Positions 24,319-59,620 of a stretch of DNA of 64,000 nt are shown here, one piece after another; within the stretch, counting starts at the first letter, position 1; the number at the start of each line of letters is the position of its first letter. This DNA comes from Tetraselmis striata (Eukaryota; Chlorophyta; Chlorodendrophyceae; Chlorodendrales; Chlorodendraceae). The notes beneath the pieces are model-generated. The model was not told the DNA's origin. It saw only the letters and a program-made list of their open reading frames with translations, and did not search any database. The translations under genes were made by a program, and so were the position numbers. The DNA lies in NCBI GenBank assembly GCA_006384855.1, contig VCJN01000544.1:124001-188000 (forward strand), written 5' to 3'.

Positions 24319-26365
24319 TTACAGCCGACAATACCGCAGTACATGGGCGATGTTCACTCACGAGTGATTCAGCCGCGTCCGGCACATCCCCGGTCCAATA
24401 TAAGCCACCGAAACCAATCGGCTTAAAATCCGGTCTACGCGACAACGGATCGGCTTCATTCCATTTGCCCTTTCGGTATGCAAGAGATATGGACCCAACA
24501 AACGGCTGCAAGTCGCGTACATAGCGCACTTGTCGCCGGTTCAACCTTTCTGCCGGTTGCCTGAGCAGATGACGCAGGGTGTCATGATCTGAGACAACAA
24601 GGAATCGACAGCACCCTTCAAGGTAACAACGCCAGTGCTTAATTGATTCACAGACAGCCAAAGCTTCCAAATCATAAGCACTGTAGGTATTACCACGCTC
24701 AGCTGCATTCAGCTTTCGCGCCCAGTAACTCACTGGTTGAGGACCTCCTCCTTGGTCCTGCAGTAGCACTGCAGCAAGCCCTACGTTGGACGCATCTGTC
24801 GCTACGGTGAACGTCGCATCCGCCCCCATGGAAGGAATGGAAAGACACGGAGCGGAAATCAGTCGCAGACGAAGGGTCTCAAAGGCTTCCTGACACGCCG
24901 GTGACCAGTCAACATGAACTGGTTTAGACTTACGCAATAAGTCAGTCAATGGTGCAGTTAAATCACTGAAATGATGAATAAACTTAGAGTAGAAATTGCA
25001 GAATTGTACAAAACTTCTGACTTCACTCTGAGTTTTAGGGACAGGCCAATCCCTAACTGCAGCTACTTTGGCCTCTGAAACAGACAACTTACCATCAGCG
25101 ACGGTATACCCCAAATAATCCATAGATTGCATGCCAAAGAAACATTTCTTTAATTGCAACCTCAGATTATATTCATTCAGTTTCTCAAAAACTAAACGAA
25201 GGTGCTTTATGTGGTCATCATAATTATCTGAATATATACATATATCATCCAGATACACCACCACAAAGTCACGCAAAAATGGTCTCAAGATGTCATTCAT
25301 CATGCGCTGGAAAGTGGCTGGGGCATTGCACAAACCAAATGGCATTGCAGTCCACTCCCATAGACCATCAGGTGTCTGAAACGCTGTCTTGTGGATGTCC
25401 TCCTCTGCAATGGCAACCTGCCAATAACCTGATGCTAAATCCAGATGGGTATAGCAACGGGCATTGCGGAGAGAATCCAACGTTTCATCAATTCGCGGCA
25501 AAGGATACATATCCTTTCGAGTGACCTCGTTCAGCCCACGAAAATCGACACACAACCGAAGGGATCCATCTGCCTTCTTAACAAAAAGAATAGGCGAACC
25601 AAACTCAGATTGACTAGGACGAACAAGTCCAGCGGCAATCGCATCTTTGAGTTGGCGATCCAATTCAGCACGTTCAGCGGGAGACAAACGATTAAGTCTT
25701 TGGCGTTTCATTTTGCCAGTTAACTCAATTTTGTGATCCCATGGCCGATGAACAGGCGGCCTGTTGACTGGACGCAAAATTTCAGGAAACTCGTCATACA
25801 ACAAATGACGAATAGCATCCTTTTGCTCTGGTGTCATAGCATTGTCTAAATGCAGGTCAGGATCATCCTTTATAACCGACATTTCAACGACATAGAATTC
25901 AGCCAAAGAATTATGCTTAGACGCACGAGCAGTTTTGCGCATCAACTTTTGTACCCTAGTGGAAGTAATCATGCTACATGCAGGAGTACGACCCACTATT
26001 ACAACAGGTACATGGGTTCCATCCATTAAAGTCATGATACGTTCCGTACCATACTTAATGGTAACTTGCGCTTCATCAAGCCAAGTTAAACCCAATACAA
26101 TGTCGGAGACTTTGAGCTCACGCAGTATATAAAATACTCGATTCTCAAATACATGTCCTCCAACAGACAGAGACACAACAGTTGTATGGCAACATGAGAC
26201 ACGTTGACCATTAGCCAAACGGACAGGTGTTCTGGCTTTCAACTTTTGTATCTGCAAGTTGTTTCTGCGCACAAAGTCCTCAGATATAAAATCTAAAGAT
26301 GCCGCATTATCAACCAGTGCATCCACAACGGCGTCATCGTTAATTGTCACATTAACTTTCAACAA
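24149..26365 (-). mobile_element. protease, reverse transcriptase and RNase H of the gypsy element
   Basis: Protease-like region around 26032-26365 (VDALVDNAASLDFIS). RT around 25072-25705, with the FGSPILFVKKADGS and VVYLDDICIYS boxes. RNase H around 24442-24925 (FTVATDASNVGLAAVL). The order fits Ty3/gypsy. Confidence 0.9.
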
Positions 26366-26586
26366 TGGCCTGGGGTCATCCCAACGAGTCAAAGAAGCAA
26401 TCTGAGGCAAACTTTGCCTTTGCATACTCCAAAATGATGGATCAGTCACATTGACAGCATCACACTCATTTATAGACTCAGATGCACGTTCACCAATACC
26501 AACGCTAGAATCCGCAACTTTTGCAGAGTCCACGTTAAAACTCACATTTGGACTTGTGACAGTTTTAGGTACAAAGTCATCAGGAA

Positions 26587-27004
26587 AAGCACAGTTAGCA
26601 TCAACTAACCAAATGTTAACCCCATACTTTGGCGGTCTAACATCTTCCTGGACTGTGGCATTTTTATGAGACCACCTGGTGAACAAAGGTGTCTTTGCCG
26701 GGTATTGCTGCAATAGTTTCCAATGCTTTGTCAAAGCACTGAATCTATCAAATGCAGGCAATACAAACACTCCTACAGTATGTTCTTTAGCCCTACTGCG
26801 GCATTGCTCAAAATGCCTCGCAATAGACTCAGTCATATGCCATGGAGGGTGAATAAACACACGTTCATTCGACAAGTCGCGCGATAATATCGAATCTTGT
26901 TCTGAACAGAACGGCAAGTTTCGATGGGTATTCAGACCCTCATTATCCGCACAGCCCTCCAGCGTAAACTGGAACATCTCATGTAAGGGATCGAAGACTC
27001 TATC
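26587..27004 (-). mobile_element. methyltransferase-like PPW segment upstream of protease
   Basis: Between gag and protease lies a ~140-residue segment. It has an FDPLHEMFQFTLEG start, an IHPPW motif and a later VGVFVLP strand. The order resembles the phage-Dam-like domain of DIRS elements (compare NPPWPLLPDLVQK and VVAPRWEGK in the neighbouring DIRS copy). The resemblance is by eye and homology is not proven. Confidence 0.45.
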
Positions 27005-27409
27005 GACCAGTCGCCACTCGGCACTGACTGCAGTCTTTCTAGGCATACGACGCCTCAGAGCCTTTACGCGACGATGAGTCGAAACTTTCCGAGCACCCGT
27101 TACACAGGCTACTGGCAAAGTCGTACCAGACTCGCGTACACTATTCGAGTTCTCATCAGTAGGCGACTCAACATAGTCGTTACTACTCTCAGAGATGACG
27201 ACATCGTCACTCGAACATGTACTCGTCACAGGTATATCGTCATTCAGACGTGCATTAGACAATAATGCGGATACCTCAGGTGCCAATGACATATCGGCAA
27301 CAGTAACTTCGCAGTCATGCGACTCGACAGTTACTGGACAGCATGATGTAACACAAACATCACTTACATCCCTATCTACTGAGCTGTCAGCAGCAGAATA
27401 AGGGCACCC

Positions 27410-29167
27410 CTATTTCATCTTAGGGCAGTCTTTCAGAAGGTGAGCCTCACCACACTTAAAGCATGTTTTAGCAGCCAGATGCTTAGCATACTTCTCAGGC
27501 TCATGCATTTTGACATGATTAAGATAATCTACTATCTTTCTGCCAGGTGTTGTGGTGTTATTACCCTTCTGCTTCCCGTCGCTGGACTTCTGCCTCTTGC
27601 CGTTGTTGGTGTGGCGTCCATTGGCTGCGACAGGTGGAGCATCATCTCCACGGTTGCGTTTGCTCATGTTGGCAGCCTTGGACTTCTTCCTGGAGTCATG
27701 TCCTCCATTGCCATTGCCAGCAGGATGTCCATTGGCCACAGGCTTAGCCGCATTGCCAAGCGCCTTGTTGCTCCCAACCATCGCCGTTGTATACTGCTGT
27801 AGCTCAGCGAGTGTCGATGGTTGTCCAGCTCGCTTCTGGTCAGTCACAAACTTATGGGCAATCTCTTTAAGCTTATTGTGACTCAATGCAGATGCAAACT
27901 TAAGGACCATGAACTCATCAGGAAGGGTTAGTCTGGTCCTTGCTAGGACATCGTTGAAGGTCTGCACAAAGTCCTTATAATCCAAGGGAGAGTCTTGGGG
28001 ACCAGCAGACACCTGCTTGATGCCATCAAGCTCTATGCATGCATCATGCACTATGTCATGCATCAATGGTGAGTCTCTAACTGCCTTCACAAACTCTGCA
28101 GCGTTGGTAGGACGCAGCGAAGGAGGCTTGGAATCAAATCCCTGCCACCAACGCTGGAACTTGCCACTCAGAGTCTGCACGGCATATGCAAGACCAGATG
28201 CAGTTGTGGACTTCAGTCCCACAGTGCCAAGCAGCTCCGGTAGTCCAGTCAGCCATACATCTAGCTTGAGGACATCCTGGCCATCTTGCTTGGGCTGGGT
28301 TTGAGCAGACTTCCTCTGGGACTCAGTTAGTTGTGCATCACGCGTCTCATACCATGGTATGTCAGTGATTGTTATATTGCTGAGGTCAGTTGCCATCGGA
28401 TCTACAACTAGATAACGATGCACAGCATGCCAGATAGGGGACTCACAAGAGTCATACCTAAATGCGAATTGTTGAGGAAGCTCAGGGTATGAACGGTTCA
28501 TCCAGAAACCATTCAACACAGACTTATAAATGGTTGCCCATGAATCACTTACCGCAGTATGAATCATGAACGGAGGGTACCACACAGTCGTCGGCACAGG
28601 CTTGCCTTGACTGTTCAATGCAATGCTCACGGAGTACGAATCCTCAGACTCCGGGTCTAGGGTGATACTCTCAGGGAAGGTGCGCGCGACGTCGGGTAAT
28701 GCAGCGCCGCCATCATCAGCATTTAGTTCTTCACCAGCTGCAACCACCGGTGCTACTAAATGCGACATGACTAAGGCGTGCGATCTCTCTGGTGTGCGCA
28801 TCTCCTTCGCTATCTGCTTCGCCGATAGCTTAGATGCATATAAGAAACAACGCATGCCCTCGATGGTGAGAATGTCAAACAATTCTAAATCATCTTCATC
28901 GACAAGCAAGCCAGTCTCTTCACGCAGTTTGCGCACCGCCGTGCCGCGCACAGACTTGTCAGACGCTATCGACTTTCCGACAGGTAAGAAGAGAGTCGAT
29001 CTAGCGTTCGGTTCAGTCGTCAGAATCACTTGGCGTTCGACCGAGTGACCCTTACCGTAAGTCACCACCACGGCTGCACAAACCTTGGTAGTCGACAGGT
29101 CGACAGAACTTTCCTCGTTGAGCAGCAGCTCTCGGCTCTTGCCAGCAGAATTCATCGACTCGGACAT
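27410..29167 (-). mobile_element. gag of the gypsy element, with Nudix-like N-terminus
   Basis: About 585 residues. Residues ~28-125 (28793-29086) look like a Nudix fold: a hydrophobic strand (AAVVVTYGKG), a G-K-S...RKLREETGLL helix box, then a strand-like FDILTIEGMRCFLYA. A gag-like helical region follows (~300-480) and the C-terminus carries a CCHC zinc knuckle (CFKCGEAHLLKDC, near 27425-27466). A Nudix module in gag is unusual. The Nudix call rests on motif resemblance only. Confidence 0.7.
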
Positions 29168-29246
29168 GTCGAACTGTTCAGTCGAGTTATCTCAGATAAA
29201 GCAGTGGAAGCTAGGATAAGGAGCGCAACAGTCGCTCCGAAACCAG

Positions 29247-40833: not shown

Positions 40834-41400
40834 CGGTGAGCGGCGGTGACCGTGAGGCGACCCCGTACTTCATGCGCGTGCTGGGGCGTTACACAATCAT
40901 CAGCAGTTAGGGCGGCTGCATTAAAACGCGCACCTACGAACACCACCTACCGCCTACCACCTACCGTACCACCTACATCCGCCCACACCTCCGCCCGTCG
41001 TGCCGCACATCGCGGCACACCGCGGCGATGTGCAGCGATGTGCAGCGAGTACTTGCAGCCGCCTGTACTTAGCCCGGGTACTCCGCGTCGGCGGGCGACA
41101 CGCGAGCCCGCGTGCGCATATCAATTTGATGAAATTATGGAAACGAGAAATTCATATAGTACTTTACAGGTCGCGCGCGATAGTCGTCGCTACTGGGTAT
41201 GAAATCCACGTCCCTCGTCCGTCCCGTATCGTCCCCGTATGTCGTCGTTCGTCACCAGTAGGGCACATTTACGTCACATCTAAATCTCACAGTGAAGAGG
41301 GTTAGGCCGCATGTCGTAATGGGCGCGCCAGAAGGGGGGAACCGGTGTAGACTCGTGATGTGGAAAGACAAAATGAAGCCGGAGGGGTTGACTCAGGGAG
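40834..41400. other. stretch without a recognised gene
   Basis: No domain seen in any frame. Around 40935-40985 there is a short CACCTACC/CCTACCAC reiteration. Confidence 0.4.
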
Positions 41401-42800
41401 GTAGGGGTGGAGGACGACGACCCGGACATGTGGGACAGTGTTGAGGGGGTCCCGCTCATGCCGACGACTCAAGTGCAACTTTGCTTGGAAGGCACGCCCA
41501 AAGGCGTGTCCTCGAAACGCAGCTGCTTGGGGCCGGCACGGCGGAGCACGCCATCATTCGGCCTTGTCGGCCGTCGGGGCCTCGGCCTTCGCCTTGCCCT
41601 TACTAGAGTCCTTGGTGACGTCCTTGGCGAAGATGGTTCGCGGCGCCACCGTCCCGCGCGCCGGGCGCGCGTTTTTGAACCTGTCGCGGTTGCCGCCGCG
41701 CCGTCGTCCCGGTCGTGGTCGTTGTCGTTAAGCCGGAGACCACCGCCAAAGCGCTGACGGTCTAACTAATGTCTTCGCAGCGCCTGCGATATTCACGTCG
41801 TAGATCCGGTCCTTGTAGAGCTCCAGCCGCTCGGTGACCTCGGGCGACCCCAGGTTCTCAGTGCCATGGCGGAGGTAGCGCCCCACACGACATCAAGGGC
41901 GAGAGTGTCCCCGTTGTGCATCTGCGTGTCCAAGTGCTTGCGAAGGTAGGCCAAGCGAAACCGATGACAATCGTCGACGGCCTCCGTGGTGTAGACGATG
42001 GCCTTGAACCGCTGTCCGAAAGCCGGCGCAATCCCGTCCGTGACGCACGCCGCTGCCAACAGCTTGCGGAACTCGACGGCAAAGTCGACGATGAAGACTT
42101 CGAAGCACGTGGCGTGGTATTACTCGTCCGTTGCCGCCGGTTGCAGACTTGGGTTACCAAGCAGGTACTCGAGCACGCGGTCGAGGGTGACGGGGGAAAG
42201 CCCCCGGCGTCGCAGACTGTCGGGAGGCAATATGTTCTCGAAACCGGGCACAACAGTAGCGAGGGCGGTTTTCCAGTCATCACGGTGCAAAGGGCAATAC
42301 CAAAAGCCATGCACGGGAGGCTAAATAGACCGCCCTCCGCGCTATTCATCGCGCTTCCTGGCCGTTGCATTGATGACCTCGCTGGGGCCCTTTGGCGGCA
42401 GCGCAGCTCCATCCCTCTAGCGCATATAGCGGGGTTCGCTCGAGGAAGCGAAGGTCGCGCGGACGTCGTATGGTCCATACCATCGGCGTGGGACTCGTTC
42501 CCGCCCGGAATGGCGTCCTCGTCGCCGGCGGTAGCCGGCGGTATTGGAGTCTCCTTGGTAGCGAAGAACTTGGACAACTGCTCCTGGATGTGCTTTCTCA
42601 TTTTTCGCGTCTTCCGCCTCACGACACCCCGTCTTGATGCGTGCTTGAGCAGTGGTCAACGTCTCGACACCCTTGACAGCCGCCGCCTTGCCGGCGTCGA
42701 CCATCTTGGGGCCCGTGGGTGAGTCGCTGCCATGCATATCGAAAGGGTCGTCCGGGGGGGGCGCGGCGGGGGGAAGAGAGAGAAGAGCCTCGGCTAGAGT
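41401..42800 (-). CDS. unassigned coding-like segments
   Basis: On the minus strand several frames give protein-like pieces: KMVDAGKAAAVKGVETLTTA (~42650-42720), FWYCPLHRDDWKTALATVV (~42240-42310) and FKAIVYTTEAVDDCHRFRLA (~41930-42010). They lie in different frames and I could not join them by convincing splice sites. They may be a decayed or intron-rich gene. I recognise no family. Confidence 0.22.
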
Positions 42801-43081
42801 TGGTCATGTAGTAGCAGCGAGAGTGGAGGGTGGAGAGTTTTGTACCGTTTTCGGGGGGGGGGGGGGGGGGGGGGGCTGAGCACTATGCACGGTTTGAAAT
42901 CGCGTGTTAGTATTGTGCGGGCAGGAGGCTAGCATAAAACTAAGAGAGTGGTCCCATCCAGCGGACGATGATGGTTGTATACGATTCGACGGGCAGTGGG
43001 GTGACCGATGTTTTCGCCGAGGGCGGCACGCAAAGTGCCGCGTACTTCGGCATTTCAGTGCTAAAGCACTGAGCCTGCCTG
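42801..43081. other. spacer with a G24 tract
   Basis: The G tract is at 42853-42876. No gene seen. Confidence 0.4.
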
Positions 43082-43555
43082 GTGGGCGTGCATTGCTCTG
43101 TGGCTTCCACGTCAAATTGGCGTGGTGCGGAGGCCGTCGGGCAGCCCCTGTCGACATGGACCGCATACCCTAGGATTAAGGGAGGGAAAGGAAACCCCAA
43201 GAACGGAGCTCCATACATTTCAAAGGAAGGTAGCCAAGGCAGATTAGCCACCTCGGTCTTCAGGACTGCGGAGGGGGTGGGGCGGCGCCCGACGGAGCGG
43301 GGGCGCTGCCGAGAAGCTGCTGCAGTGGGCGAAGGAGCTCCGATGACACAGCCATATGGAAGATTACGTGGGGGTGCTGCAGTGGGCGAGGGATCAAGGG
43401 CGGGGTCAAGGCTATGCTTGAACGGATGCGCGGACGCAGCTAGCGGAGCGCAAATGGAAGTGATGGAGCGGCCAAAGGAGCATTGCTCTGCATGGGATGC
43501 TGAGCTCACTTGCGCTACGGGAGCAATGGGGAGTCAGGTGGGGATTGTGCGATAG
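43082..43555 (+). CDS. hypothetical ORF, doubtful
   Basis: 157 residues, Gly/Ala/Arg-rich, with no recognised domain. It includes a duplicated phrase (GCTGCAGTGGGCGA at ~43318 and ~43375). Probably a chance frame. Confidence 0.15.
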   Translation: MGVHCSVASTSNWRGAEAVGQPLSTWTAYPRIKGGKGNPKNGAPYISKEGSQGRLATSVFRTAEGVGRRPTERGRCREAAAVGEGAPMTQPYGRLRGGAAVGEGSRAGSRLCLNGCADAASGAQMEVMERPKEHCSAWDAELTCATGAMGSQVGIVR

Positions 43556-46035
43556 TCAAGGGAGCAAGCCTGTGCCCTTTGCCAGAATGCGCTAACCGCC
43601 CGCACTGGGGCAGCTTCATATGGGCACATGGACGTGTTGCGGTGCTGGGCGAGAGAGCGAGGCTGCCCCAGGGATACAATCAAGTGCTTGAATGCCGCCA
43701 ACTTGCGAAGGCAGATTGCCGCGGCAGAGTGAATAGCCAAGAATATGCGCGCAGGACGCCGAGCTCCATGCCGACACACGTTGCCATATAGTCCGTCGGA
43801 GTTGTTTGCTGCTTGATAGGTAATCAGTCTTACACTGCGTGTTGACAACTGTACATCTTCTCGGTATCCATGGCTGAGGGGGGGGGGGGGGGGGATAAGT
43901 GATAAAAGGGTTGCTGCCACCATGGGAGCCAATCTACCAAATTAAAATTTGTTACCACACCATCCCGGGGCTGCTGCCGGCTACCTGTTTCTCAGCCTCA
44001 CACCTCTCAACTTCATGAACCCGCAAAGTGTTAGACATGCCCGTTGCATGTCGTCCATGTTCGAAGGTCAATAAGTTCCTAACTCTTAAAAAGAGTCCCC
44101 CCCCCCCCCTTACTTGCCGGCCGCCCGGCAATCCGGGCGACGGGCTAAAGGGGTTTGTTGTTGTTTTTGTTTTGGGCTGTATGATTACCCCCCCCCCCCC
44201 CCCCCTTGGGGCTTGGCTTTCAGCTAGCGCGATTCTCATGGCTGTTGGTGGTGAGTCCGGCGCGGGGGCGGTGCTTCAACCCGTAGATTTGCTGCATCTG
44301 ATGTGTGTGCCTAGCCATTGTACTATGTGTATGTGCATACACTCAATCCACCATACAGAGTGAAGCGTGCGCGTAGCTGTGTTATTCCAGTCCCGCAAAC
44401 ATACAACACGCGTGGATGGGCGCACCTGTTTGTGGTGGAGGACGGGCAAGGAGTGACTGAGACTACGCCAGCACAATGGTGACTACTGCTACTAGCGATG
44501 GCTGCTGTTGCTAGTATTTAACCAGAATTCCGGGCCGGTCGATGGAACGGTACACTAATACACGTGAGTCGTACAGGGTTTACGACGCTCGTACAAAGGG
44601 CACAAGTCTGTACTCGCTGTAGCCCAACCGCAGCAACCCGCGACCACGTGACCGCACCGTATGCGCATGTTCCCGCCATTTAGCATCCCCCGGGAGTCGC
44701 AGCGTGATCGAGCGCTGCGCTCCACTGGTTAAGGCCGAGCAGCGAGCACGTCGCGGTGCTGGGATCAGGCCCCGCCTTGAGCTGCTGCCAGCGGTGTCCC
44801 CGGACAACCTCGGAGTTCGGATGTGAAGGCGGGGAAAACACCGCTGGCCGTATGCTCTCCGATCCTGTGCAGCTCACCAGTGCCTGATCGCCGAACGCGC
44901 GGCAGCCACCTGCCCACTCTCCTGGCCCAGGTCACCGCCCGAGGGAGGCTTCCTGAGCCCCGTGCACAGTTGGATTTGTTTCAGCCGCCACCGTGCAAGG
45001 CTGTGCCGAGAGAGTATTGTAACGCCCCCCTTACCGGGCGGTAGGGAAGGCAATACAGTCCCCAAACAGATGCTGAGCGAGAACCGCCCACGCTACGGCG
45101 ACATGACAAATCCATGATGCGAGCATTCCTTGCGATACACTGTGCGCGCAGATTTTAAGATCTAGTCATATTGTGATTAGGCATACTCGCAATGCTCCTT
45201 GCTAATAATCATAACCGGGACTCAGATGATTGCCCTCAACCCTCACAACGCCAACTGACCGACAGGGTTGGAAAACCCTGTGGGGTAAGTGATACGCTCC
45301 TGGTGCCGCGGCCTCGGCCACAACTTCTTGGGAAATGACCTACGTTTCAAACAAAGTATTGACAAAGCAAAATTAGCTGACCAACTTTCAAGGGAGAAAG
45401 TCAAGTCGTGCGGTGCTGAAAATCCTGACACTTTGTACCATCAATTGAGAAATCCTGACTGGAGGGTTCGGTGGGGACTAGCGGACCAAATACAATTTAG
45501 GGCTAGGTCTATGGTTGGGGCGCATGTTAGGGTTAGGTACAGTGTTAAGGGCTTATGCTAGGTTATTTGGGCTTATGGTTTGAATTTTGGTTTAGAGGGA
45601 CATACATCTCCGAGATCTGGATTCACTCTTCCTAATTATATGTAAATATGTACATTATATTCGTATTCACATGTGTATGTAGTACATATAAGCCTGTATA
45701 TGCATTGTACATTTAAACCTGTGTCAGTAATGCCTGAAAATGGCACATGCGCAGAGCTGGTAAGAAGGTACACGCAATTATGGCTTGCAAGCCACGTGAT
45801 ACAAGTAGCAGCAAATCTGCCCACCATCTAGGTGGACCACTATCATGAAACGAATCAGCGCGATATATCTGTAGAATAGCGTGGTTTACCCCTTTGGGGC
45901 GTTTCACGGATGAGGTCCTGTGCCAAGTGTTGACATGGCGCCAGATGTATTGTTAGTTTCATTTTGCGCACGTTATGGCTTTGCTATGGAGCACATGCCG
46001 CGCGGTGAGCGGGATTCAAGTGATGTGTTCCTGCG
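43556..46035. other. intergenic stretch
   Basis: Holds G17 (43878-43894), C12 (~44098-44109) and C18 (44188-44205) tracts. Open frames are short and show no domains. I see nothing assignable. Confidence 0.45.
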
Positions 46036-49000
46036 TCAGTAGCCCTGCCGGGGCTCAGGATTGAGAGTGTACTGCAGCATGCGCCGCTCCGGGCCCTTCC
46101 CCCGCCCAGCCGGGTTTGGCAGCTCCGGCAGAGCGGTCTTCTCCCCGGTTTTCCGCGCGTGGCTGGCCTTGGACTGCGTCCTGGAGCTGGCGCCCCGCTC
46201 CGCGCTACCATAACGCACCGGCTTCAGGTCCGGGTACACAAAGCGATGGGCGACTCCCGAGGACGGACTGCTGGCTTCCTTGCTTGATGCGTGGTTGCTG
46301 CCAGGGGGCGCCTGCGAGCTGCTTTCCGGCTCTGACGATGCCTGGAATGTGGCGAGCTGATCATGCCGCCCGTAGTCTTCTGCCCGAGCGTGCGTGTGCC
46401 GATGCTGGCCCTCCATTCTGCGTGCCCCCGCAGGCGTCAGGTCCTGCAGCGCGCTGCAGACCTCATGCAGCGTGGCCTTCATCATCCCCATCTCCGTGGC
46501 CACCTCGCGCCGCACCTCCAGAATCTCCAAGGTGACCTGCTGCCGCATGTGCGACATCTCCGCCGTGACCTGCCGCTGCATGACGGCCAGGTCGCTGGAC
46601 AGCCCCTGGCGCACCTGCTGCAGCTCGGACACGTTGGACGCCATCAGCTGCGTCTGCATCTTGGAGTACATGTCCACAAAGGATGCCTGCACGGCGCGGC
46701 CACACACCCTCAGTCAGCCTCTCCGCCAGCTCCCTCTGAGATGCACCTCCGCGCTCGTCCAACGTGCACAGGCACACAGACAAGCAGAGAAAACATGTGG
46801 CTTGGGCAGTGATTGCGTCAGATCCCCTCCTCAGCTTAATACTGACCTGCCCAGAGCCCTATTTAATTTGTGGTTGGTGTATCGTGGCCACGATTTGGGT
46901 CTGCGCGCGGGTCTATTGTCATTGTATTTATATAACGTAGAATTAATGTAAAGACGGTCCGCGGGGACAAAGAGAATAAATTGTTTTGCACCTTCGCGTC
47001 GGAATATTGGCGCTATATTCGTGCTGGATTCCGAGTTTCTTCTCCGTTTGAGTAATAGCTATATTTCCCTATTCGCACCGGGGGGGGGGGGGGGGGGGGG
47101 GGCATTATTTATCCGCAGACAGTTGTGTTTGCTCGGCACATGTTCGCTTTTGACGAGCGTGCACCTGCGAAGAGAGCAGAAAAGCTACATCTATCTTTGT
47201 TGAACTGGGAAATGTATCAGAGTACAAGACGAACGCTGCACGAATATTGCGACTCGATCTGGCAAAAAAACGATTCTTTATTTTTGACCTGCAAACCGGC
47301 GCCAATTAAAAAATCGTGTTACCTCGTACGACGACCTCGACCCCGTCGTCTCATCCGCCCGTCCCAAGCGCCAACACATTCAGTCGGCCAGCCGGGACTC
47401 GATCGTACCTGTAGACGGTCCGTGGCTTCCATGAACACCTGGTGCGTCGTCTCCATCAGCTGCGAGCTACCGACTGCGCCAGCAGCCGATATGTGGCTCG
47501 CAGGCCTCACAGGCGCACCGCTCGTGCTGTCTCTCCGCCGCCCCACTGGGACCGGCCACTGCTTTGTGGTATTTGTCCCGGCACGCGTCGTGTCCATGCC
47601 TCCGCTGGCTGCCCCCTGGCCTTGCTGCTCCTCCGTTGGCTGCACGAGGCGGTCCATTATCTTCTCCACAAATGACTGCGGGGTGCGCACAACAAGTGAG
47701 AGCAGTGAGGAAACTTCGAGCCGCGCTCAGCAATATCGTTCAGGCTAAATTCTGAGGTGGGTCTATCCGCTGGAAGTATAAGGATCGACAACATCATGTA
47801 TATATATTAGCAGAGGTTGATGAGTAGCAAGCGGAATGAGGCTCCGTCCGGCTCTCTAATCCAGGATACAAAAGTCGACAACAGCTCTGTACATCCGTGA
47901 GTAAAGAATGCATATTCAGCAAGAGTGTAAGTCTTGTACATGATGTTGTTTTTGAGTGATTGCGCAAGTACCCGGTACACGACCGTCAGTTGTTCATAGT
48001 CATATAACCTGCAGCAACAAACGTATACAGTATATACATGCGACATTGCAACGGTAGGTCGATGATATATTAGGGTATGGCATGGTATCCTAGTTCAACG
48101 CGCCATGCCTGGTTTTACAAGGGTAGCTGAGGTGCGGTAGCCGAGGTAGCTGAGGCGCCATGCCTGGTTTTGTAAGGCATCACTCTGTCCTAGAATAAGT
48201 TGGTGCTTGCTGCCTATAGCCTGATGCTCGCGGCGAGCGCAATTTATCCATTGCATTCGATGTACACGTATGTAGTGCATGTGAAACGCACGCATAATTG
48301 TTGGAAAATCCTTAGTGTATACCTTATGTTATTATCGCAAAACAATATTATTGATTGTTTTTGCCGCGATGGGTAATGTACTGCGAGAGGTACTGTGGCT
48401 TGTGACAAAAATGCCCACACCGGCATGCATCACACGAATATAATAACGCGAAATAATAACGCGAAATAAGTTTTTTGTAGTATATGAATAACAATATATC
48501 CAACGTATGGTATGGTATACGGGATGTGGGTTGGATCCATGCTTTGCAATTCCCGGCCGGCGGGCATGTCCGCTTATTGAGCGTCATCCCCGCAGTAGCA
48601 CACCTGGTAGTACTCATCGGAGTGCTTGATGGCCACGTTGTTCGCAAACACCTTCTGAATCTCGTCGGGGAGGGCGGTGATCAAGTTGGAAGGCGGAAAC
48701 TCGTACACATCCTGCAAGCCAAGCATCCCAACATCAGTGAGCCTGTCACTGGCGGCGCAGGGAAACAGCGCCTACCTGATACAGGCACCAAACTCCCTTT
48801 CAAGCCGCAGTGAATGAAACTCGTATATAACAGCCCGGTGTCGCTACTTAGAAAGTCCTGCCTGCCATGCATATATGTGATGATGCATAGGCGCACAGTG
48901 TTGTCTTTACTTTTAAAAGTCATTCAATTCCAGGCAGATATTTATCCTTTCTGGCGGTGCAGCGTCTTGGCCATCTGGTGAACTCTAGTAGTGAACAACA

Positions 49001-52000
49001 GTACAACACAAATACCACGAAGCAACCCCCCAACTCACGTTTCACAAGTTACAGTCGTCCACTACTTGTCATTCCTCATTATTCTTCATCACGACTCGAA
49101 ATCTCGATTATTTCAACTTTCTATTCCCAGTTTTATATCCGTAACAGTGAGACTATTGTCGTTTCTGAGCAATGGTTACGTAGCACTAAGTCACGGACAG
49201 TCTGTGCGCGTTTACTACAGTATCTTCATTTCCCAGTGCGGTTTGGTTCATTGCTGTACGAGTATGGGGCTCCCTGAGCTCCCCATCATCGGTGTGCTAC
49301 GAGCATATACCCTCACCTGGCCGTCACTGTTAATCCACTTGGAGCCCTCTTTGACAATCAGGATGATATTGCAGCCGCTCCGCACCGCCGCCAGCAGCTC
49401 CTCCTTGCACCAGAAGCTGTCAAAGATGTGGTCGGAGAGGATGAACACAAAGTTTTGGCTCCTGGCACCCATCGGACGTGCCACACATGAGGCCAATTCA
49501 GTGTCAGCATACAGCCAACCTTTTTCACACACTACATCATTATCTTTTATCAGATGTAATAACACTAATATATATAGCTATATTAAATATATACAATAAA
49601 TTTTGATATTTCACAATATACAAATATATATAGGTTACATATCTACAAAGGACAACGCAGTAAATAGTTTCAGTTCCGCCGTGCAGTCACTTCACATGTA
49701 CTGCAGCGAAGCGGTAAGTTCCGTCTATTCGATAGTACTGATTATCTACAACATTGCTAACCCTAATATCGCCTCGGACAACCAAAATAGTCATTCTGCG
49801 GTGCAGAACCATGCTGTATGATAATCATCATATAATAATAGTATTAGTCAAATTCATTTTAAGCAAATTCGTATTGTACTTTGAATTGAATAAAAAACCG
49901 GTTTCTGACAGCATGCTTCCCTGCAGGGGAACTGACGCACCTCGCCACCGCATCCTGCAGGTCGTTCAGCTCTTTGAGGTACTCAAAGTCCAGGTACGTG
50001 CTGTAACCGCGCTGAGTCAGGAGATTGAACAGCGCTCTGGCAAAGTCCTGCGATTAACAGAGGAAGGCGACAATATGAGCGCCGGGGGGATCTCGGGGGG
50101 GGGGGGGGGGGGGGGGCGTTGATTGAGGATTGCGATAGCTAGATATTGAAACATGTCATTAAGAACTAATGAAACTGTTAGGGGCCTTTTGTTGGACGAA
50201 ACATTTTAATGTAGGACGAAGAAATGACTACGTTATCACCTGATGTAGATGGCATCCAAAACCTGAGAGCAGAACTCGAAGCCCTAGCCAACATGAGCCG
50301 CCACCGGGTGCTATCCCTGGATGAGTAAGAGGCCCAGTATGTATGAGGCAACAGCGCCGCTTGCGTGCCCGGGGCTGTCGCACCTTGGAGTCTGCCCGCC
50401 GATGGCTAAGGAAGACATTGAAACCGATGCTGGCCTGCTCGTTCTGTGACATGCGCTCCTGCATTGACCGCGAGTCGAAGATGTTCCGCTTCATGTCATA
50501 ACCCAGCTCCGTGAGGCAGGCCTTCGCGGCGTCGGAGACGCGCATGTCGGGCGAGCTGGTGAGGGGCACCAACTTCCCCGTCATCTTGGCGGAGCGGATG
50601 GCTTGTGCGATCCCCGGGCTGTACGCGAGATTGAGCAGCGTGCGCACGCACGGCAGCGTCCAGTCCGCCACCTCGTTCATCATCTGCGCACGCCACCGCC
50701 TCGATTGTCAGCCATGCGCTGCACTCGAGTACCGGTAGCGTGCGGTACCGAAAGGATGCCAATGAGTCGTCATTGAAATGCGTTTCTTAAACCCTGAAAA
50801 CCCTCAAAAACGCATGTCATTCATGTGTCATAGTTGAGGCAAGATCTCAGCATTGAGTCGATCGTTCACGGCATTGCCATACTATCCATACATCGCCAAT
50901 GTGCCCCCCATTGCGCGCGCCTGCCCCCCCACAGCCTGGTTCTTGCCTGATCGAGCGCATCCAGCAGGCCGGCGTCCACCAGCTGCTTGTTGAAGGTCCC
51001 GTGCTGGCTGAGGCAACACGCCATGAACGCCACCTCCTCCCCCGACACATCCCAATCCTGCACGTGCGGGATGGCGTCCAGGCCGCTCAGCGCGTTGTTC
51101 ATCATGTCCACGACCTGCGCCGCCACGTTCTGCTGCGACAGAAACGCTTCCGCCTCTCCCGCGTTGGATGCGTCTGTGCCGTATACGTTGGCAACGGCGA
51201 GGGTCAGCGACAGCTGAACGACGGGATCGCTCGTGGGGCCCACTCCCTTGTTGATCGCCACCAGCTTCTCCGCCGCAGCTGCGATGGCCACAAGGGGTGT
51301 CATTGCTGCGATGGCGCAGCTTTGGCAGAGTACATTCAGGAGGAGGGTGGGGGAGGAATGGGGGGGGTCGCCGTGCACCATGAGTTGCTAGGGGAAGGCC
51401 ACACATTCACCTAGCAGCTCGGCATCCCGCATGCTGTTGTGCGTGCTGACGGAGCGCGACATGTTGTACAGCAAGATGCTGCACATGCGGAAGTTGGGGT
51501 TGCCCGCCAGGCGGGAGCTGGCCAGCATAATGACGCCCGACTTGCGCAGCTTCTCGCGGAACTTGGTCTTGGGGCAGTCCGCCACGCCCTGCAGCAGCGT
51601 CGCCGCGACCTGGGTGACCTCCGTCATGGGGCCCGCCCCAAAAATCTGCACCACTTTCGCGTAGAAGCCAATGTTGAACAGCGTGCTGTGCGCCTCGTAC
51701 AAGCTCTCCACCTGCCGCATGCCGGTCGTGACTGTCAGGGATGCTTCCTGGGCCTCCTCTATGTATCCCAACAGCTTTACCGCCCCTGGTATCGCATCCA
51801 TGCAGAGGGTCCTCCGTTGAGCCAGACATCGATGACAGAGCCACGAGGGCCATCCGGCTCCAGCGGCAGGGCAACCCAAGGATTGTTAGGCCAGCGCACC
51901 TTTCCGACCTGACACGTCTTGTCCTGCCGTGCAAGGGCAGGGTGTCAGAGAGGACAGTACGCAACGCACGCTAGGCCAGCCACAGCATGCGCCCGCACAG

Positions 52001-52709
52001 CATGGCGTGGCATGGCATGGCGTGGCGAGGTACGGCATACGTAGTTGTAGCACCACCGCACGATGGTCATCAGCCAGCTGCGCAGCTCGCCCTCCCCTGG
52101 CTGCCCAGGCAGCTCCGCCTCCTCGTCAGGGCCGTCAATGAGCGCGGTGAAGCACGGGAACATGTCGCTACTTGTGAGGATGGAGGCAACCTACACGCAC
52201 AAAGGGGCCGCAGCGATCGCCGCCTCAGTTCCGGCCGTCCATGCAGTACCCTCACCGGCGACTAGCTGCCGCAGGGGCGATGTGGTCGCGCCAGGAATAC
52301 ATCGGGAATTGAGACAAGGATGCACGACAGAACTGCATGCCTCCGCAGCGCATCGACCGACCTTGTACAGCTCGCGCTCCTTGTCCACAAGCCTCTCCAC
52401 CAGCCGCTTCAGAAGGCAAACGCTCCATACGAGCTCGACGCCGCCGGCGAGCAACTTGCGGCTGCCCTCGCGACGGCGCTGCGCCTCGCTGGCGCTGCGC
52501 TTCATCTCTGAGCACAGCGTAGGCACGAACAGCAGGTTCCTCGTCACCAGCAAGTGCACCGCGACGCCCGGCGTGAAGTCCGCGCCCCCGGAAAGCTCCA
52601 CCAGCTCCCGCAGCGCTTCCGGGTTCGCGGCCGCGTGCGCGCCAGCGCTGGCAAGCTGATCCACCAGCTGGTCCAAATACTGCAGTAACGCCTGGTCCAA
52701 CACCACCAT
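46036..52709 (-). CDS. ARM repeat - TIR - coiled-coil protein (SARM1-like)
   Basis: Likely a TIR-domain NADase or signalling adaptor. Exons: 52362-52709, 52041-52190, 51411-51908, 50947-51305, 50384-50683, 49941-50047, 49317-49461, 48604-48711, 47409-47675, 46036-46686. Splice phases agree at every junction; only inside exon 3 is a frame change unresolved (small intron or error). Exons 1-5 are alpha-helical repeats typical of Armadillo (LLNLAYSPGIAQAIRSAKM, TLAVANVYGTDASN). The TIR domain runs from FNVFLSHRRADSK through GYSTYLDFEYLKEL, SQNFVFILS and WCKEELLAAVRSGCNII to LPDEIQKVFANN, HSDEYYQ and SFVEKIMDRLVQ. The Glu at 49398-49400 aligns with the catalytic Glu of SARM1. Exon 10 encodes a ~75-residue coiled coil and a Ser-rich tail. 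Without splicing at 48604, the TIR exon would instead stop at 48574. Confidence 0.75.
49317..50683 (-). other. TIR domain core exons
   Basis: Exons 5 (end) to 7 carry the first half of the TIR fold. Boundaries are CAAG|GTGCG / TCGCAG|GAC (phase 0), GCGAG|GTGCG / GCCAG|GAGC (phase 2), then CAG|GTGAGG. The residues joined across the second junction restore the A-R-S-Q-N-F-V-F-I-L-S strand, which closely matches the GARNFVLVLS strand of SARM1. This supports the exon model. Confidence 0.78.
50684..50946 (-). other. probable GC-AG intron
   Basis: Exon 4 ends GATCAG followed by GCAAGA, and the next exon starts after GTGCGCAG. No GT donor fits the frame nearby, while the GC donor keeps phase 0. GC-AG introns are a known minority class. 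Confidence 0.55.
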
Positions 52710-53872
52710 CGTGTCGTGTCGCAGCCTCGTCTGCAGACTGTGCCGCTCGCTGCCGCTGCTCCCCCACCTGCCGAACTTCCCGCCACCTCACCCTCACCCC
52801 GGCGAGCTCCTCCTCCCCCGACTCCCGTCGATCGTCAACAGTGGCGCCCCAGCGCCCCGAGTTTTGGACTGTGTGGGATCGCTGTGCGCGCGAGCTCGTA
52901 TGCTGTGTTGACGTCTGTTGTTTCGGAGGGGCAGGGGAGCTTGCTGTTTCACACCAGACTTGGTGCTGTGGTGAGGCGGCGCCGAGACGCATGCTGCACA
53001 CATGCGCGCTGCTGTGATATGAAGCACGCCGCCGGCCCATAGCAGATCGTACCGGTACGTTGCTGTACAGGTACACCGTACCCGTTACACGTTTCGTTAC
53101 ACGGGGTAGAGTCGTCGGGCGCGGCGCGCGCGCATGCTGAGCTCATCCCACACCAGTCCAGCACATTCTAGTTAGAACGCTGATATCCAGGCTGCCGGAG
53201 CACGTGAATAGTCCTATTGAAGTACTTCGAAAAAAGCTTCGTGTTTACGAATATCGGTGCGGTCATACGAGGCTTGCCAGAGTGGAGCACTTTTCCCAAA
53301 AGTGCTATGTATCGTGTCCCCTCGTAAACCGAAAGTGAGCAAAAAGGTGAAATTTATGAAATTTACATATCTTCGTATGATAAAGCGTATTTTCACATAT
53401 CAGAAAAGGTTAAATTGTAGCTATACGCGCAAAATATATGTGCCATTAAGTATCACTGCGTCGCGGATGCAGCGCGAGGTGTACGAGGTCGGTGATGACC
53501 GGTATTTATGCGGATGAATGTACTAAGATTGAGATACAGTTCCTCGCTCGCTTTGCGCGGTGTGATCGTTATGTATACGCATATTCGCGTGTACGTGCTA
53601 CGACGAAATGACACATCCAAGATGTGATCGTGCTGAGTTGGTTTTTTTCGACATTTTGATTGGTGTATATCATACGGCATATCCGGACGAGGCAGTCGCA
53701 ACGAACGCGCACCGTTCCCAACCTGCTGGTCGGGCTACAGTATGGGTCATTACTATTTTTCCCAGCAGGATCTTCCAGGACGATAGCCTTTCTCTCCCAC
53801 CGCGCACACACCCAGCACTTGCGCATATATCCCTGTGGCATTGTTCGACGAATTTTCCGCGGTCGGGCGTGC

Positions 53873-55237: not shown

Positions 55238-55357
55238 GTATGGTGACGGAATTCCTGAGAGATTAAAAGATATCTGAAGTGGCTGAACGTATGACGTGCT
55301 GAATGGAATACTTGTATTTGATTCCTACCTACCATATCCTAGCATTCTGCAATATTT

Positions 55358-58300
55358 GTGCCTGACATGGCAGATATATCATTGGAAGAATACGGCTTAC
55401 CAAGCATTCATACAGACATAAACCATTTGAATGCAATATGGGAGTACTTTGATCGGACATTATTCAGAGACATGCTTGTATGCCCCTGCTGTGGCACCAC
55501 TGTAATATCAACTTTTGACCCTCGTACAGAAGCGTATGATTTCAATGGCTTTACCCTACGTTCAATTGATTTATGTGACATGCCGTTTTATACTGCTCAT
55601 CACCATTTGCATAAATTTTGTAATGTTCAACCATGCAACACATGTGCATATATATGCAAAGACTGTGTAAATACCGAAGTAAGAGAAGAGAAGAGAAGAT
55701 ATGTTGTTGCAATGCCAAGCAAGACATACATGTGTGATATAACTCGAACTCCCCTTAGTGTATTGCATTTCTTACCTGTGGTGGATGTCCATATCGAAAT
55801 GACCAGGAGATATTTCGGATATTTTGAAGGGAATTTGCAAGAGCGATCATTGATACATGCACCCCTCGTGGCTAATGATCGTAACACATATGAGTCAACA
55901 AGCCGCAATTTCCTACCACACATGCAACGAGTCATAAATATTTTGTATGACGTTAATCCTCTTTATCACATGTTTGTTCCTTTTATTGAGCGAGATATGG
56001 AGAAGGCGGCTGTGCCAATCGTTTACTATAGCATCATTGAAAATATATTGAGAAAGGCAAGCACTCGTGACCCTCATTTGTCATGCTCGACTGCGATTCA
56101 TGCAAGTATTAACGACATCATTGAGGACGCGCAGAATTCAAGTAGTGAACAAAATCGTAATTTACACACAGTATGCGTGGATTTTGATGCGCATCATGGT
56201 GATGACGACAGTAGTGACGATCGTGAATTCGTGATAGGTGAAGCATATCTGCGTGACAACGGTGCGTTGCAAAGACTACATGTAGGTAGTAATGGAGATC
56301 CCAAGCGGTATGTGCAAAGGAATGCTGTTACAATGGAAAGCACATGTTTTCCGCATTTATTTCCGCATGCAAAAGGACAATTTGAGGGTGAAATGACTCT
56401 TAATAAATACACAAAACAAAGAATCAGGTCGCTGTTTACTTGCCATAGTTTGAACGCCCCCTACATGTTGATGCTTTACCAGCAATATACACACATCCGG
56501 TTGGCGAAAAATGTTCAGAAAGGCATGCTATCCCGAGATATATCGCGATACCAACGACGGCACCCAGACGCTGCAGAAGAAGAAGTTTATGCCAATGTTG
56601 TGAAACACTCAATACCGCACACTATATCTGGGTCACCTTCGTGGTATCGGAACCATTTGAATGATCTCATTACCGGTGTTGACACGTATGGCATGCCGTC
56701 AATCTTTGTTACTTTGACAGAAGATGAAATATCTGAAACTAAGTGGGAGGCATTTCGAAACATGCAAAATGTATTAAATGAATTCAACACCAATTTGACT
56801 TGGCAAGATGTTCCGATTGAAAGCGCCGAAGCATTTTACAAACGAACCATGACTTTCTTGAGAACACACATCGCTCCGAAGCAAATGTATGCATCAAAAG
56901 GTATATTTGGTAGAGTGAAGCATTGGATAATAAAATTTGAAGTGCAAGGTCGCGGATCGCTACACGCTCACATTAGCATATGGATACACGACGATGATGT
57001 TGAGAGTGTTTGGAACAAAATAACAGCACATCTACCAGGGAAAACTTGCGAAAGTGGAAGTAATATCCCGCCCGAATCCGACCAGGAATTAGTGCAGAAA
57101 TTGTATAAACTCGTGGAGCGCAAGCAAATACACAGGTGCAAAAACGGTGTCTGCATGGAGGACGGACGTTGTCGATTGCACTTTCCTGTCTTGCGAACGC
57201 ACGAACAACATGAACCACAATACAACGAAACAACGAGTCGATACGAATATTACCGCCCCAGACGCTGCGACCGAAATGTTGTGCCATACCACCCTGAACT
57301 GTTATTGTTATGGGGAGCTCATGTAAATGTGCAGAAAGTAACCAACGAAGCATGGAGCCTGTATTTGTTGAAATACCAAATGAAAGCAGAAGCACATGGT
57401 TGTCTATGTATTGATGACGACAACAGTCGCATTCTTGGGCTACAGAGCATGACAGAAGAGCAACGGAAATGCGCTGGTGCCATGTACCTATCCCGGCCAG
57501 TATCTATGGCTGAAATTGCGATGACCTTAAACGAGCGACCCATGATTGCCCGCAGTCTCTCTTTGTGCACTACTTTCGTGTCAACACAACCGCCGGCCAA
57601 CAGAATCACAATGTATAACTCTATGCATTCTGGGAAGTCTTCCAACATAGCATTGAAACACGTTGATAAATACACCTGTCGACCGGATGTATTAGAAGAG
57701 GTCACATTTGTCCATTATTGTAAATACTATACAGTCCGCAAAAACATGTACGCACGAAGCCATGCTTTTGATGGGAACCTGGTAAGTGCTTCCACAGGTG
57801 GCACTTGGCATTCATACGTTGGAGTCGATCGATTGGGCCGCCACGTGTATAAATTCCTGACCCCACGTTTGATCCGTTTCAGTGATTACCACCCCTCATA
57901 TAGCCTAGAAGGTTTCTACTACAACAAAATGCTGAAAACGAAACAATTCCGGCATGAGGATGAACTATTGTGTGGACGGTCGTCGTATTTTGAGGCCTAT
58001 TGCATACATGCCAACATTCGTTGTGTTCATACTTTATCAACTGTGCTAGAAGACGATATCGCGGAATATACAAGAAGGCACTTATACACGAGGGCTGATC
58101 ATGATAAGCTCCTAGGTGAAGCATTCAACGCAATAGTGAACGCTTTTTCCACCGACCGTCTCAGAGCCCTATTTCCAGGCGATGAAAATAGCGACACTTT
58201 GTCACAATACATCGCGAATCGGACTAGAACGCCATCTAGCACCGTAGACGATCCATCTACATTCACCCAATTCTTTGTTGCTACTCCGGTGCCCGTGCCT

Positions 58301-59620
58301 GATGGTGATTTAGACGCGGACCAAAAACAAATCTTAGACATTTTGTTGTGTGAAGCACATGGTTGCGATCGTATCTCCGATTACCACCTGATTTTGGGAA
58401 AACCGGGGACCGGAAAGACATTTCTCACCAAGCATATGACGAATGCCTTTCTCCATGCAGGATATACAATTTGCCACGCTGCTTCAACCGGTGCAGCTGC
58501 TCAGCGGATGTCGAAATATGCATCAACGGTACATAAACTGTTCAACATAAATCCTGCAAACACATTTCTAACACCTATGTCTTTTCTATCTTCGTCATAT
58601 CAAGCACTCGTTGACTGTGGAGTAATAATAATAGATGAAGCTAGTATGCTAACGTCGGAATTGGTCAACCTCGTGTACCACAGATTGCGCTGCATTGCTC
58701 ACGTACAAAGGGCGCAGAATCCGGAGTATCGGCACCCTCTCGTTATTTTTGTGGGTGACTTCAAGCAACTACCGCCTGTCTGCAAATGTAGGTTGATTCA
58801 TGGCCAAGTTATATGCCGCTCGTGCCATTTCGTGTCATCGATGTTATATTTGAATAGCATACAAAAGCATTCCCTGCTAACGCCGCATAGATGTACCGAT
58901 AATGCTTTCTTGTCTTTCTTAACGAAAATAAGGGTTGAACTACCCACTTCAAGCGACATACGATCACTTTTCCAGCCATCTCAAATTATCGATGACAAAC
59001 ATATTCTTAACAATGTTTCGGTAAATGTAACGACGCTGTGTTCTCACGTCAAAGATACCGCTGTTGTAAATGACCATGTCATTACAACCACCTTTCACTC
59101 TGCCAATATTGTCCACATTACTACGCCTACGAACGTTATGGATGGTTCCCATCTATGCAATTGGAGGGACAAAGTCATTCATACTTGCATTCAAAGTTTT
59201 GCTATAGGTGCGAAAATTATTGTCATATCGAATAAAGTGGCAAACGCAACAAACGGTTCAATGGGTCGGATTATTGATTATCGACGCAGAGCGAATGATA
59301 TTACTTCCTTGCTCATAAAATTGGACGATAATGATGAAGAAGTGTGGATTCGTCGATCGATGGCATACTACAAATATCACCGCGGCACTCAATACTATGT
59401 CCGTAGCTTCCCTATCTTGCTTGCATACGCAATCACTATCCATAGGGCTCAAGGTGCTACATTCCCTGGCAAAATACTGATTCACATCGCTGAAGGATTC
59501 GCGCCTGGTTTGGCGTACGTTGCTTTTTCTAGGGCTGCAAATCCGACGCTCATTACCCTCACCACATCGACGATCAACCCCAATAATTTCACACCGATTC
59601 CATCATGGATTACAGATTGA
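55358..59620 (+). CDS. Helitron Rep/helicase transposase
   Basis: 1420 residues, uninterrupted. The N-terminus has Cys pairs (CPCCG, CNTCAYICKDC). The Helitron-like N region (~360-500) includes SPSWYRNHLNDL and GMPSIFVTLTEDE. The HUH nuclease box (GRGSLHAHISIW) lies near residue 531. The paired catalytic tyrosines lie in YLLKYQMK near 668. A Pif1-type helicase follows: Walker A GKPGTGKT (~1013), DEASM (~1091), FVGDFKQLPP, and the late motif AITIHRAQGATF (~1357) with YVAFSRA. No endonuclease or RPA domain is seen. The protein nicks and rolls out element DNA. The gene is AT-richer than nearby host exons. The element ends (5' TC and a 3' hairpin with CTRR) were not found, so its borders are open. 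Confidence 0.93.
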   Translation: MPDMADISLEEYGLPSIHTDINHLNAIWEYFDRTLFRDMLVCPCCGTTVISTFDPRTEAYDFNGFTLRSIDLCDMPFYTAHHHLHKFCNVQPCNTCAYICKDCVNTEVREEKRRYVVAMPSKTYMCDITRTPLSVLHFLPVVDVHIEMTRRYFGYFEGNLQERSLIHAPLVANDRNTYESTSRNFLPHMQRVINILYDVNPLYHMFVPFIERDMEKAAVPIVYYSIIENILRKASTRDPHLSCSTAIHASINDIIEDAQNSSSEQNRNLHTVCVDFDAHHGDDDSSDDREFVIGEAYLRDNGALQRLHVGSNGDPKRYVQRNAVTMESTCFPHLFPHAKGQFEGEMTLNKYTKQRIRSLFTCHSLNAPYMLMLYQQYTHIRLAKNVQKGMLSRDISRYQRRHPDAAEEEVYANVVKHSIPHTISGSPSWYRNHLNDLITGVDTYGMPSIFVTLTEDEISETKWEAFRNMQNVLNEFNTNLTWQDVPIESAEAFYKRTMTFLRTHIAPKQMYASKGIFGRVKHWIIKFEVQGRGSLHAHISIWIHDDDVESVWNKITAHLPGKTCESGSNIPPESDQELVQKLYKLVERKQIHRCKNGVCMEDGRCRLHFPVLRTHEQHEPQYNETTSRYEYYRPRRCDRNVVPYHPELLLLWGAHVNVQKVTNEAWSLYLLKYQMKAEAHGCLCIDDDNSRILGLQSMTEEQRKCAGAMYLSRPVSMAEIAMTLNERPMIARSLSLCTTFVSTQPPANRITMYNSMHSGKSSNIALKHVDKYTCRPDVLEEVTFVHYCKYYTVRKNMYARSHAFDGNLVSASTGGTWHSYVGVDRLGRHVYKFLTPRLIRFSDYHPSYSLEGFYYNKMLKTKQFRHEDELLCGRSSYFEAYCIHANIRCVHTLSTVLEDDIAEYTRRHLYTRADHDKLLGEAFNAIVNAFSTDRLRALFPGDENSDTLSQYIANRTRTPSSTVDDPSTFTQFFVATPVPVPDGDLDADQKQILDILLCEAHGCDRISDYHLILGKPGTGKTFLTKHMTNAFLHAGYTICHAASTGAAAQRMSKYASTVHKLFNINPANTFLTPMSFLSSSYQALVDCGVIIIDEASMLTSELVNLVYHRLRCIAHVQRAQNPEYRHPLVIFVGDFKQLPPVCKCRLIHGQVICRSCHFVSSMLYLNSIQKHSLLTPHRCTDNAFLSFLTKIRVELPTSSDIRSLFQPSQIIDDKHILNNVSVNVTTLCSHVKDTAVVNDHVITTTFHSANIVHITTPTNVMDGSHLCNWRDKVIHTCIQSFAIGAKIIVISNKVANATNGSMGRIIDYRRRANDITSLLIKLDDNDEEVWIRRSMAYYKYHRGTQYYVRSFPILLAYAITIHRAQGATFPGKILIHIAEGFAPGLAYVAFSRAANPTLITLTTSTINPNNFTPIPSWITD

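Follow-up and report, generated by a model that had tools for sequence, protein, structure and literature searches.

An ARM-TIR-coiled-coil gene of the green alga Tetraselmis striata whose predicted product is analogous in build to animal SARM1

A 64,000-nucleotide stretch of Tetraselmis striata DNA (the window; contig VCJN01000544.1) carries at 46036..52709 a gene which was confirmed, at the level of its sequence, as a real ten-exon gene predicted to encode Armadillo-like (ARM) repeats, a TIR domain and a coiled coil in one protein. Judged by homology the gene is a member of a green-algal ARM-TIR-coiled-coil family, and its product is a new architectural variant of ARM-TIR proteins. A previous reading of the window, made from the sequence only, stated that the protein “mirrors” animal SARM1. 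This is correct in the sense of an analogous build, not of orthology, because SARM1 nested among bacterial TIRs and a grouping of the algae with SARM1 alone was rejected; the ARM-TIR fusion in algae most likely arose independently of SARM1. By analogy, the protein is probably a switch that consumes nicotinamide adenine dinucleotide (NAD+).

The coding sequence (2745 bases including the stop codon) runs on the minus strand from 52709 to 46036 and gives a product of 914 residues; reconstruction of frames and borders returned the same start, stop and number of exons as had been read previously (Table 1). Donors were GT, except for a GC at intron 4 (a GC-AG border), acceptors were all AG, and junctions were in phase 0, apart from intron 3 (phase 1) and intron 6 (phase 2). 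In the TIR stretch read previously as “GARSQNFVFILS”, the letters “GAR” belong in part to an intron; with the acceptor CAG|G at 49461, the sequence becomes AVA-R-SQNFVFILS. The acceptor of exon 3 was fixed at 51747 because the longer open frame upstream (DAIPGAVKLLGY...), now read as intron, is interrupted by a stop in a second copy of the locus (TAC to TAG, by eye, from the alignment of both copies). In BLASTP, the window protein aligned with the annotated orthologue P0011 unbroken over residues 210-764 (E 3e-70), across seven of the nine exon junctions and into the coiled coil. Residues 1-175 had no BLASTP match below E 0.5, and exons 1-2 (residues 1-166) are based on frame, borders and the second copy. 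A gene model read from DNA, with introns of up to 928 bases, would leave room for an artefact joining two neighbouring genes, one for ARM and one for TIR. However, the ARM-like helices end and the TIR begins with its first strand inside exon 5, in a single frame, and the database orthologues combine ARM and TIR in single proteins; such an artefact is scarcely credible. Neither of the two outcomes that would have counted against the sequence-only reading was observed: ARM and TIR exons in separate transcripts, or a structure search putting the helical part outside ARM folds and the TIR among STAND-type proteins.

The order of parts in the spliced frame was: an ARM-type helical region, directly followed by the TIR, a linker and a coiled-coil-like segment. 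The ARM fold proposed previously was supported by an AlphaFold2 (AF2) model of the orthologue P0001 compared with PDB structures, and by the homology of window residues 177-450 to the N-terminal ARM part of the orthologues (best E 8e-20 for the ARM part alone, and E 7e-38 for an ARM profile built from the orthologues). Vac8, importin and a cilia doublet ARM chain were among the structures matched by the ARM part of the P0001 model; SARM1 was not among the 50 VIA rows listed for this part, which is no evidence of differing folds. For the TIR, the structure of family member P0016 was nearest to SARM1 and C. elegans TIR-1 among the 50 entries listed, as the sequence-only reading would predict. 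No SAM domain was found by Pfam in the window protein (two pieces, draft letters) or in P0001, P0002 and P0003, again as anticipated, and in the P0001 model the TIR directly follows the ARM part, without the tandem SAM that separates them in SARM1. Only TIR families exceeded the Pfam cut-offs in the window protein, with no NB-ARC or LRR. The proposed coiled coil after the TIR was recovered in two ways: a heptad test, in which 13 of the 14 members tested showed a coiled-coil-like tail (at most 11 of 500 shuffles, vs. 57 of 500 for P0009), and the P0001 model, in which helices 695-740 and 747-786 follow the TIR with moderate confidence.

To check the active site, 14 rows from algae and pelagophytes were aligned with a piece of human SARM1 covering its TIR, and positions are given in SARM1 numbering (E642, W638, D594, W662, R570, G601, F603, H685). 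The NADase glutamate pointed out previously, equivalent to E642, is E546 in the window protein and was kept in 14 of 14 rows, together with W638, D594 and W662; R570 was kept in 13. Because these residues are kept but G601, F603 and H685 are not, NADase chemistry of the window TIR is plausible, with a BB-loop geometry unlike that of SARM1. The BB loop takes part in SARM1 TIR assembly. Animal SARM1 and C. elegans TIR-1 share with the window protein the N-terminal ARM followed by a TIR with active-site tryptophan and glutamate; the window protein differs from them in the absence of a tandem SAM, the coiled coil after the TIR, the shortened BB loop without G601 and F603, the change of H685 to Asp, and its separate lineage in the 48-row tree described below.

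We lean towards a protein in which a TIR restrained by the ARM part and assembled by the coiled coil would consume NAD+ once activated, catalysis, autoinhibition and trigger being what we infer from the analogy. The coiled coil would hold the protein in oligomers, and in the resting state the ARM domain would bind or space the TIRs; a ligand or partner on the ARM might free them, and the freed TIRs would assemble and cleave NAD+ (or NADP+) through E546. The outcome could be a drop in NAD+ and/or a cyclic or linear ADP-ribose signal, as a response to stress, damage or infection. More tentatively, the family might represent an algal ARM-gated TIR switch for NAD+ destruction evolved independently of animals, with a C-terminal coiled coil replacing the SAM ring of SARM1 and relatives from chlamydomonadalean greens to pelagophytes: a metabolic or infection-triggered cell-death device that could be studied directly in Chlamydomonas.

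Several observations weigh against this NAD+-consuming switch. The BB loop is shortened (G601 kept in 0 of 14 rows; F603 a gap in 11 and Leu in 3), the H685 position is Asp in 14 of 14 rows, and the glutamate is common to other TIR groups, so it is no proof of activity. The structures used belong to family members and not to the window's protein, and the two-domain SARM1 matches in Foldseek had root-mean-square deviations of about 18-24, and therefore matching was domain by domain. Coiled-coil evidence is modest for the window protein (7 of 500 shuffles reach its heptad value), and the corresponding helices of the orthologue model had predicted local distance difference test (pLDDT) values of about 51-81. 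In sequence comparisons, the corrected window TIR scored 45.9 and 34.9 bits with Bernardetia, 33.4 with a half-length ROQ1 piece and 31.7 with SARM1, the plant piece being about as near as SARM1 and the Bernardetia TIR nearer; the TIR of orthologue P0001 matched plant TIR-NLR (TNL) TIRs at 2.1e-7 vs. 4.3e-3 for SARM1. Finally, the tail carries 1 synonymous vs. 8 non-synonymous changes between the two copies of the gene.

The shortened BB loop and the replaced H685 would also suit a TIR acting as a non-enzymatic assembly module, in an ARM-TIR-coiled-coil scaffold or adaptor with a signalling, vesicle or ciliary role; adaptors are common among ARM proteins, and the Vac8, importin and cilia doublet matches mentioned above would agree with such a role. 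This is possible though doubtful, given that the active-site Glu and Trp are kept throughout the 14 rows, in green algae and a pelagophyte, and that an enzymatic TIR is the closest structural match to the TIR of a family member. A TIR making plant-type nucleotide signals (cyclic ADP-ribose isomers, ribosyl-AMP type products) with no NAD+ depletion is unlikely. By sequence, the first half of the P0001 TIR scored highest against plant TNL TIRs, the motif S.WC..EL is common to algal TIRs and plant TIR pieces, and a clade of algae and plants was not rejected (see below); however, the whole-domain structure of a family member was nearer to SARM1, and the NB-ARC and LRR of plant TNLs were not found by Pfam in the window protein. 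Plant TIRs (RPV1, RUN1, ROQ1, RPS4) also lead their proteins, while the window TIR follows the ARM part.

Two trees were built for the origin of the algal TIRs, and the placement of the algal clade is uncertain because they include one animal sequence, half-length plant rows and about 150 kept columns. The algal side comprised the window protein, 12 of 18 further rows (A1) and P0020; P0005 (truncated TIR), P0010 (unusual gene model), P0016 (nearly identical to P0014), and P0002, P0018 and P0019 (TIR truncated at an intron) were left out. Eight plasmid rows were fetched (seven of 22 records and P. caribensis) and 6 were used, the two unused being Sphingobium L029 and Indioceanicola L030, which nearly duplicate the Rhizobium row. 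In a separate set of three records, PGU19 (L032) was fetched and unused, and a long-branched Streptomyces row was used in the first tree only. In the first tree (32 rows), the algal clade lay beside SARM1 and one Paraburkholderia (P. caribensis) TIR (91/85). In the second (48 rows, with 17 of the 35 bacterial SARM1-like loci added and one row dropped), bacterial TIRs enclosed SARM1 in their clade (98/92), the algal rows formed a separate clade together with Aureococcus (98/94), and joining the two was no longer supported. The approximately unbiased (AU) test rejected algae with SARM1 without bacteria (p 0.0126), and did not reject algae with SARM1 and bacteria (p 0.288), with plants (p 0.352) or with Bernardetia/Kovacikia (p 0.154).

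The close kinship with SARM1 suggested previously was not sustained by these results. A genuine orthologue of SARM1 whose SAM domains had been lost would have the identical ARM-then-TIR order and might adjoin SARM1, as the algal clade does in the 32-row tree; nevertheless it is very improbable, with SARM1 nesting in bacteria once 17 bacterial SARM1-like TIRs were included, in a tree with one animal sequence, and algae with SARM1 alone rejected. These bacterial TIRs (Anaerolineae, Acidobacteria, Bacteroidales, others) resemble the algal ones in the catalytic Glu (17 of the 17 rows used), most have a C-terminal EY(F/Y)-like motif, and they differ in grouping with human SARM1 and not with the algal clade. 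As to SARM1 being the nearest sequence relative, it was the best PDB match of the window TIR (1.6e-7) in draft letters that included five intron residues, which aided the alignment and inflated its score. An algal TIR profile scored Bernardetia at 46.2, Kovacikia at 40.1, ROQ1 at 39.2 (half length) and SARM1 at 37.3 bits. A pattern scan of 84,980 prokaryote genomes for a close TIR source matched 210 stretches, none confirmed; that of IMG/VR matched 75, none confirmed, and phages gave no match; plasmids contained distant TIRs only (22 records, best E 2e-8, Bernardetia). Distant sources are compatible with these scans, which were pattern or tblastn searches.

Orthologues in related algae, a point raised by the sequence-only reading, were found by protein searches in green algae including Chlamydomonas reinhardtii. 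Of the three proteins matched by residues 120-630, the strongest came from Tetrabaena socialis (34% identity across 89%, E 1.9e-62). The Tetrabaena protein recovered 20 proteins including itself, among them C. reinhardtii CHLRE_06g278186v5, others from C. incerta, C. schloesseri, Edaphochlamys, Volvox reticuliferus and Gonium, three from Dunaliella, two from Aureococcus, a pelagophyte, and several that were unnamed or of metagenome origin. An Aureococcus TIR recovered 11 including itself (three Aureococcus, one Pelagophyceae sp. CCMP2097 “armadillo-type protein” and seven metagenome proteins). The green-algal proteins (CHLRE_06g278186v5, Tetrabaena TSOC_001876, Edaphochlamys, Dunaliella, others) have the same order of parts as the window protein, ARM then TIR in one protein and a coiled coil after the TIR, with TIRs 42-58% identical to the window's in the 8 rows compared, some of them unnamed metagenome proteins. 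They differ in their branching: in both trees the window TIR fell outside the remaining algal rows and that of Aureococcus, a poor fit to simple descent within chlorophytes. Pelagophyte TIRs (Aureococcus; Pelagophyceae sp. CCMP2097) were 40-46% identical to the window TIR; their ARM part is known from the name given by the source to one protein, and they differ in a hydrophobic C-terminal stretch resembling a tail or membrane anchor (by eye; P0020, P0023, P0030 and P0017, pelagophyte or metagenome proteins).

The gene lies in an 11.9-kb stretch which aligned with a second copy, on contig C2373, as four pieces of 93.4 to 97.8% identity between unlike flanks; no further piece of at least 400 bases was common to the window and C2373 (60,000 of its 62,311 bases compared). 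Either the two stretches are alleles differing by large insertions, or a segment was duplicated recently. The second copy keeps all ten exons, frames and borders; 30 of its coding bases differ (15 changes synonymous, 15 non-synonymous; synonymous rate, dS, 0.023; non-synonymous rate, dN, 0.007; dN/dS 0.31), altering 14 residues. Given the synonymous/non-synonymous counts by part (ARM 7/5, TIR 7/2, tail 1/8), the ARM and TIR parts look constrained between copies, and no constraint is seen on the tail taken as a whole; within its coiled-coil part (residues 683-785, approximately) there is a single residue change (782).

Axon death is executed mainly by SARM1, and how a TIR NADase came under the control of an ARM domain has yet to be explained. 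An ARM-TIR core of separate lineage, paired with another candidate oligomerisation module and present in C. reinhardtii, in which genes are routinely knocked out, would make it possible to test directly which parts of the switch are needed, whether ARM domains acquired sensing of NAD+/nicotinamide mononucleotide (NMN) on two occasions, and whether death or defence in unicellular algae involves depletion of NAD+. The open-licence literature, judged mostly by titles and abstract openings, gave no description of an ARM-TIR-coiled-coil architecture in algae, and no paper was found under Cre06.g278186 (other gene names were not searched). In the portions available, a 2026 preprint (PMC13142454) mentions SARM1-like green-algal TIRs and gives no architecture, seven green-algal TIRs appear in a mixed group (PMC7075850), TIR-only proteins are described in green algae, with long-branched algal TIRs excluded (PMC9806590), and PMC8635717, PMC9153377 and PMC7145615 contain nothing on algal ARM-TIR proteins. 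The available text of PMC6040629 reports the conserved Glu in choanoflagellate SARM1 homologues, and also TIR proteins with Arm domains, alike by description in joining TIR to Arm.

Table 1. Exons of the gene and the duplicated stretch (window positions unless a contig is named).
Feature	Position	Strand	Content
Exon 1	52362..52709	-	ATG; helical N-terminus, residues 1-116; donor AAG|GTCGG; no BLASTP support of its own
Exon 2	52041..52190	-	Residues 117-166; phase 0 borders in both copies; no BLASTP support of its own
Exon 3	51411..51747	-	ARM; upstream frame stopped in second copy
Exon 4	50947..51278	-	ARM; GC donor; homology spans its junctions
Exon 5	50384..50683	-	End of ARM, TIR start from about 50425; BLASTP-supported
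Exon 6	49941..50047	-	TIR
Exon 7	49317..49461	-	TIR; W542 and catalytic-type E546 (codon 49398-49400)
Exon 8	48604..48711	-	TIR; LPDEIQKVF...HSDEYYQ
Exon 9	47409..47675	-	TIR end at about 47643, linker, coiled-coil start at about 47456
Exon 10	46036..46686	-	Coiled coil to about 46426 (end by eye), low-complexity tail, stop
Duplicated stretch	41295..53173 and C2373:36798-48514		Copies on C427 and C2373; aligned pieces 93.4-97.8% alike

The previous suggestion that TIR proteins are sparse in chlorophytes did not hold in this genome: the TIR_2 profile found 15 further loci in the 224 Mb searched (2903 contigs), 12 of them over the Pfam cut-off, some perhaps alleles of one another. Six of the 15 (L010, L011, L012, L013, L015 and L017) have a TIR frame followed within about 3.4 kb by an ARM-like repeat frame (by eye), and in the two checked by Pfam (L010 and L012) LRRK2-type ARM and Arm were over the cut-off. 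The TIR and ARM frames of this second, expanded family, which has SARM1 parts in reverse order, could be joined by a phase-1 intron in four aligned copies of the five tried (by eye). A SAM-like stretch between them (SAM_TNK, E 0.05, below the cut-off, in one of two tested) had no PDB match up to E 10. Because in this family the TIR precedes the ARM-like repeats, two or more fusions of TIR and ARM, differing in the order of the parts, may have occurred in this genome. In three other loci (L014, L018 and L019), the TIR frame precedes what by eye is a probable membrane helix and a set of WD40-like repeats; the WD40 of L014, the one locus checked by Pfam, had E 5e-73.

Next to the gene, a Helitron (55343-59617, plus strand) was found as a single open frame of 1425 amino acids (Helitron_like_N, PIF1 helicase). 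The minus strand at 22786-29191 contains retroelement frames (reverse transcriptase, RNase H, aspartyl protease, integrase zinc-binding domain), of which 27413-29191 had no Pfam match. Long proline-rich open frames of about 72% GC occupy 684-6163 on the plus strand; the one tested (684-4382) had no Pfam match, and they look like an algal wall or pherophorin-type protein.
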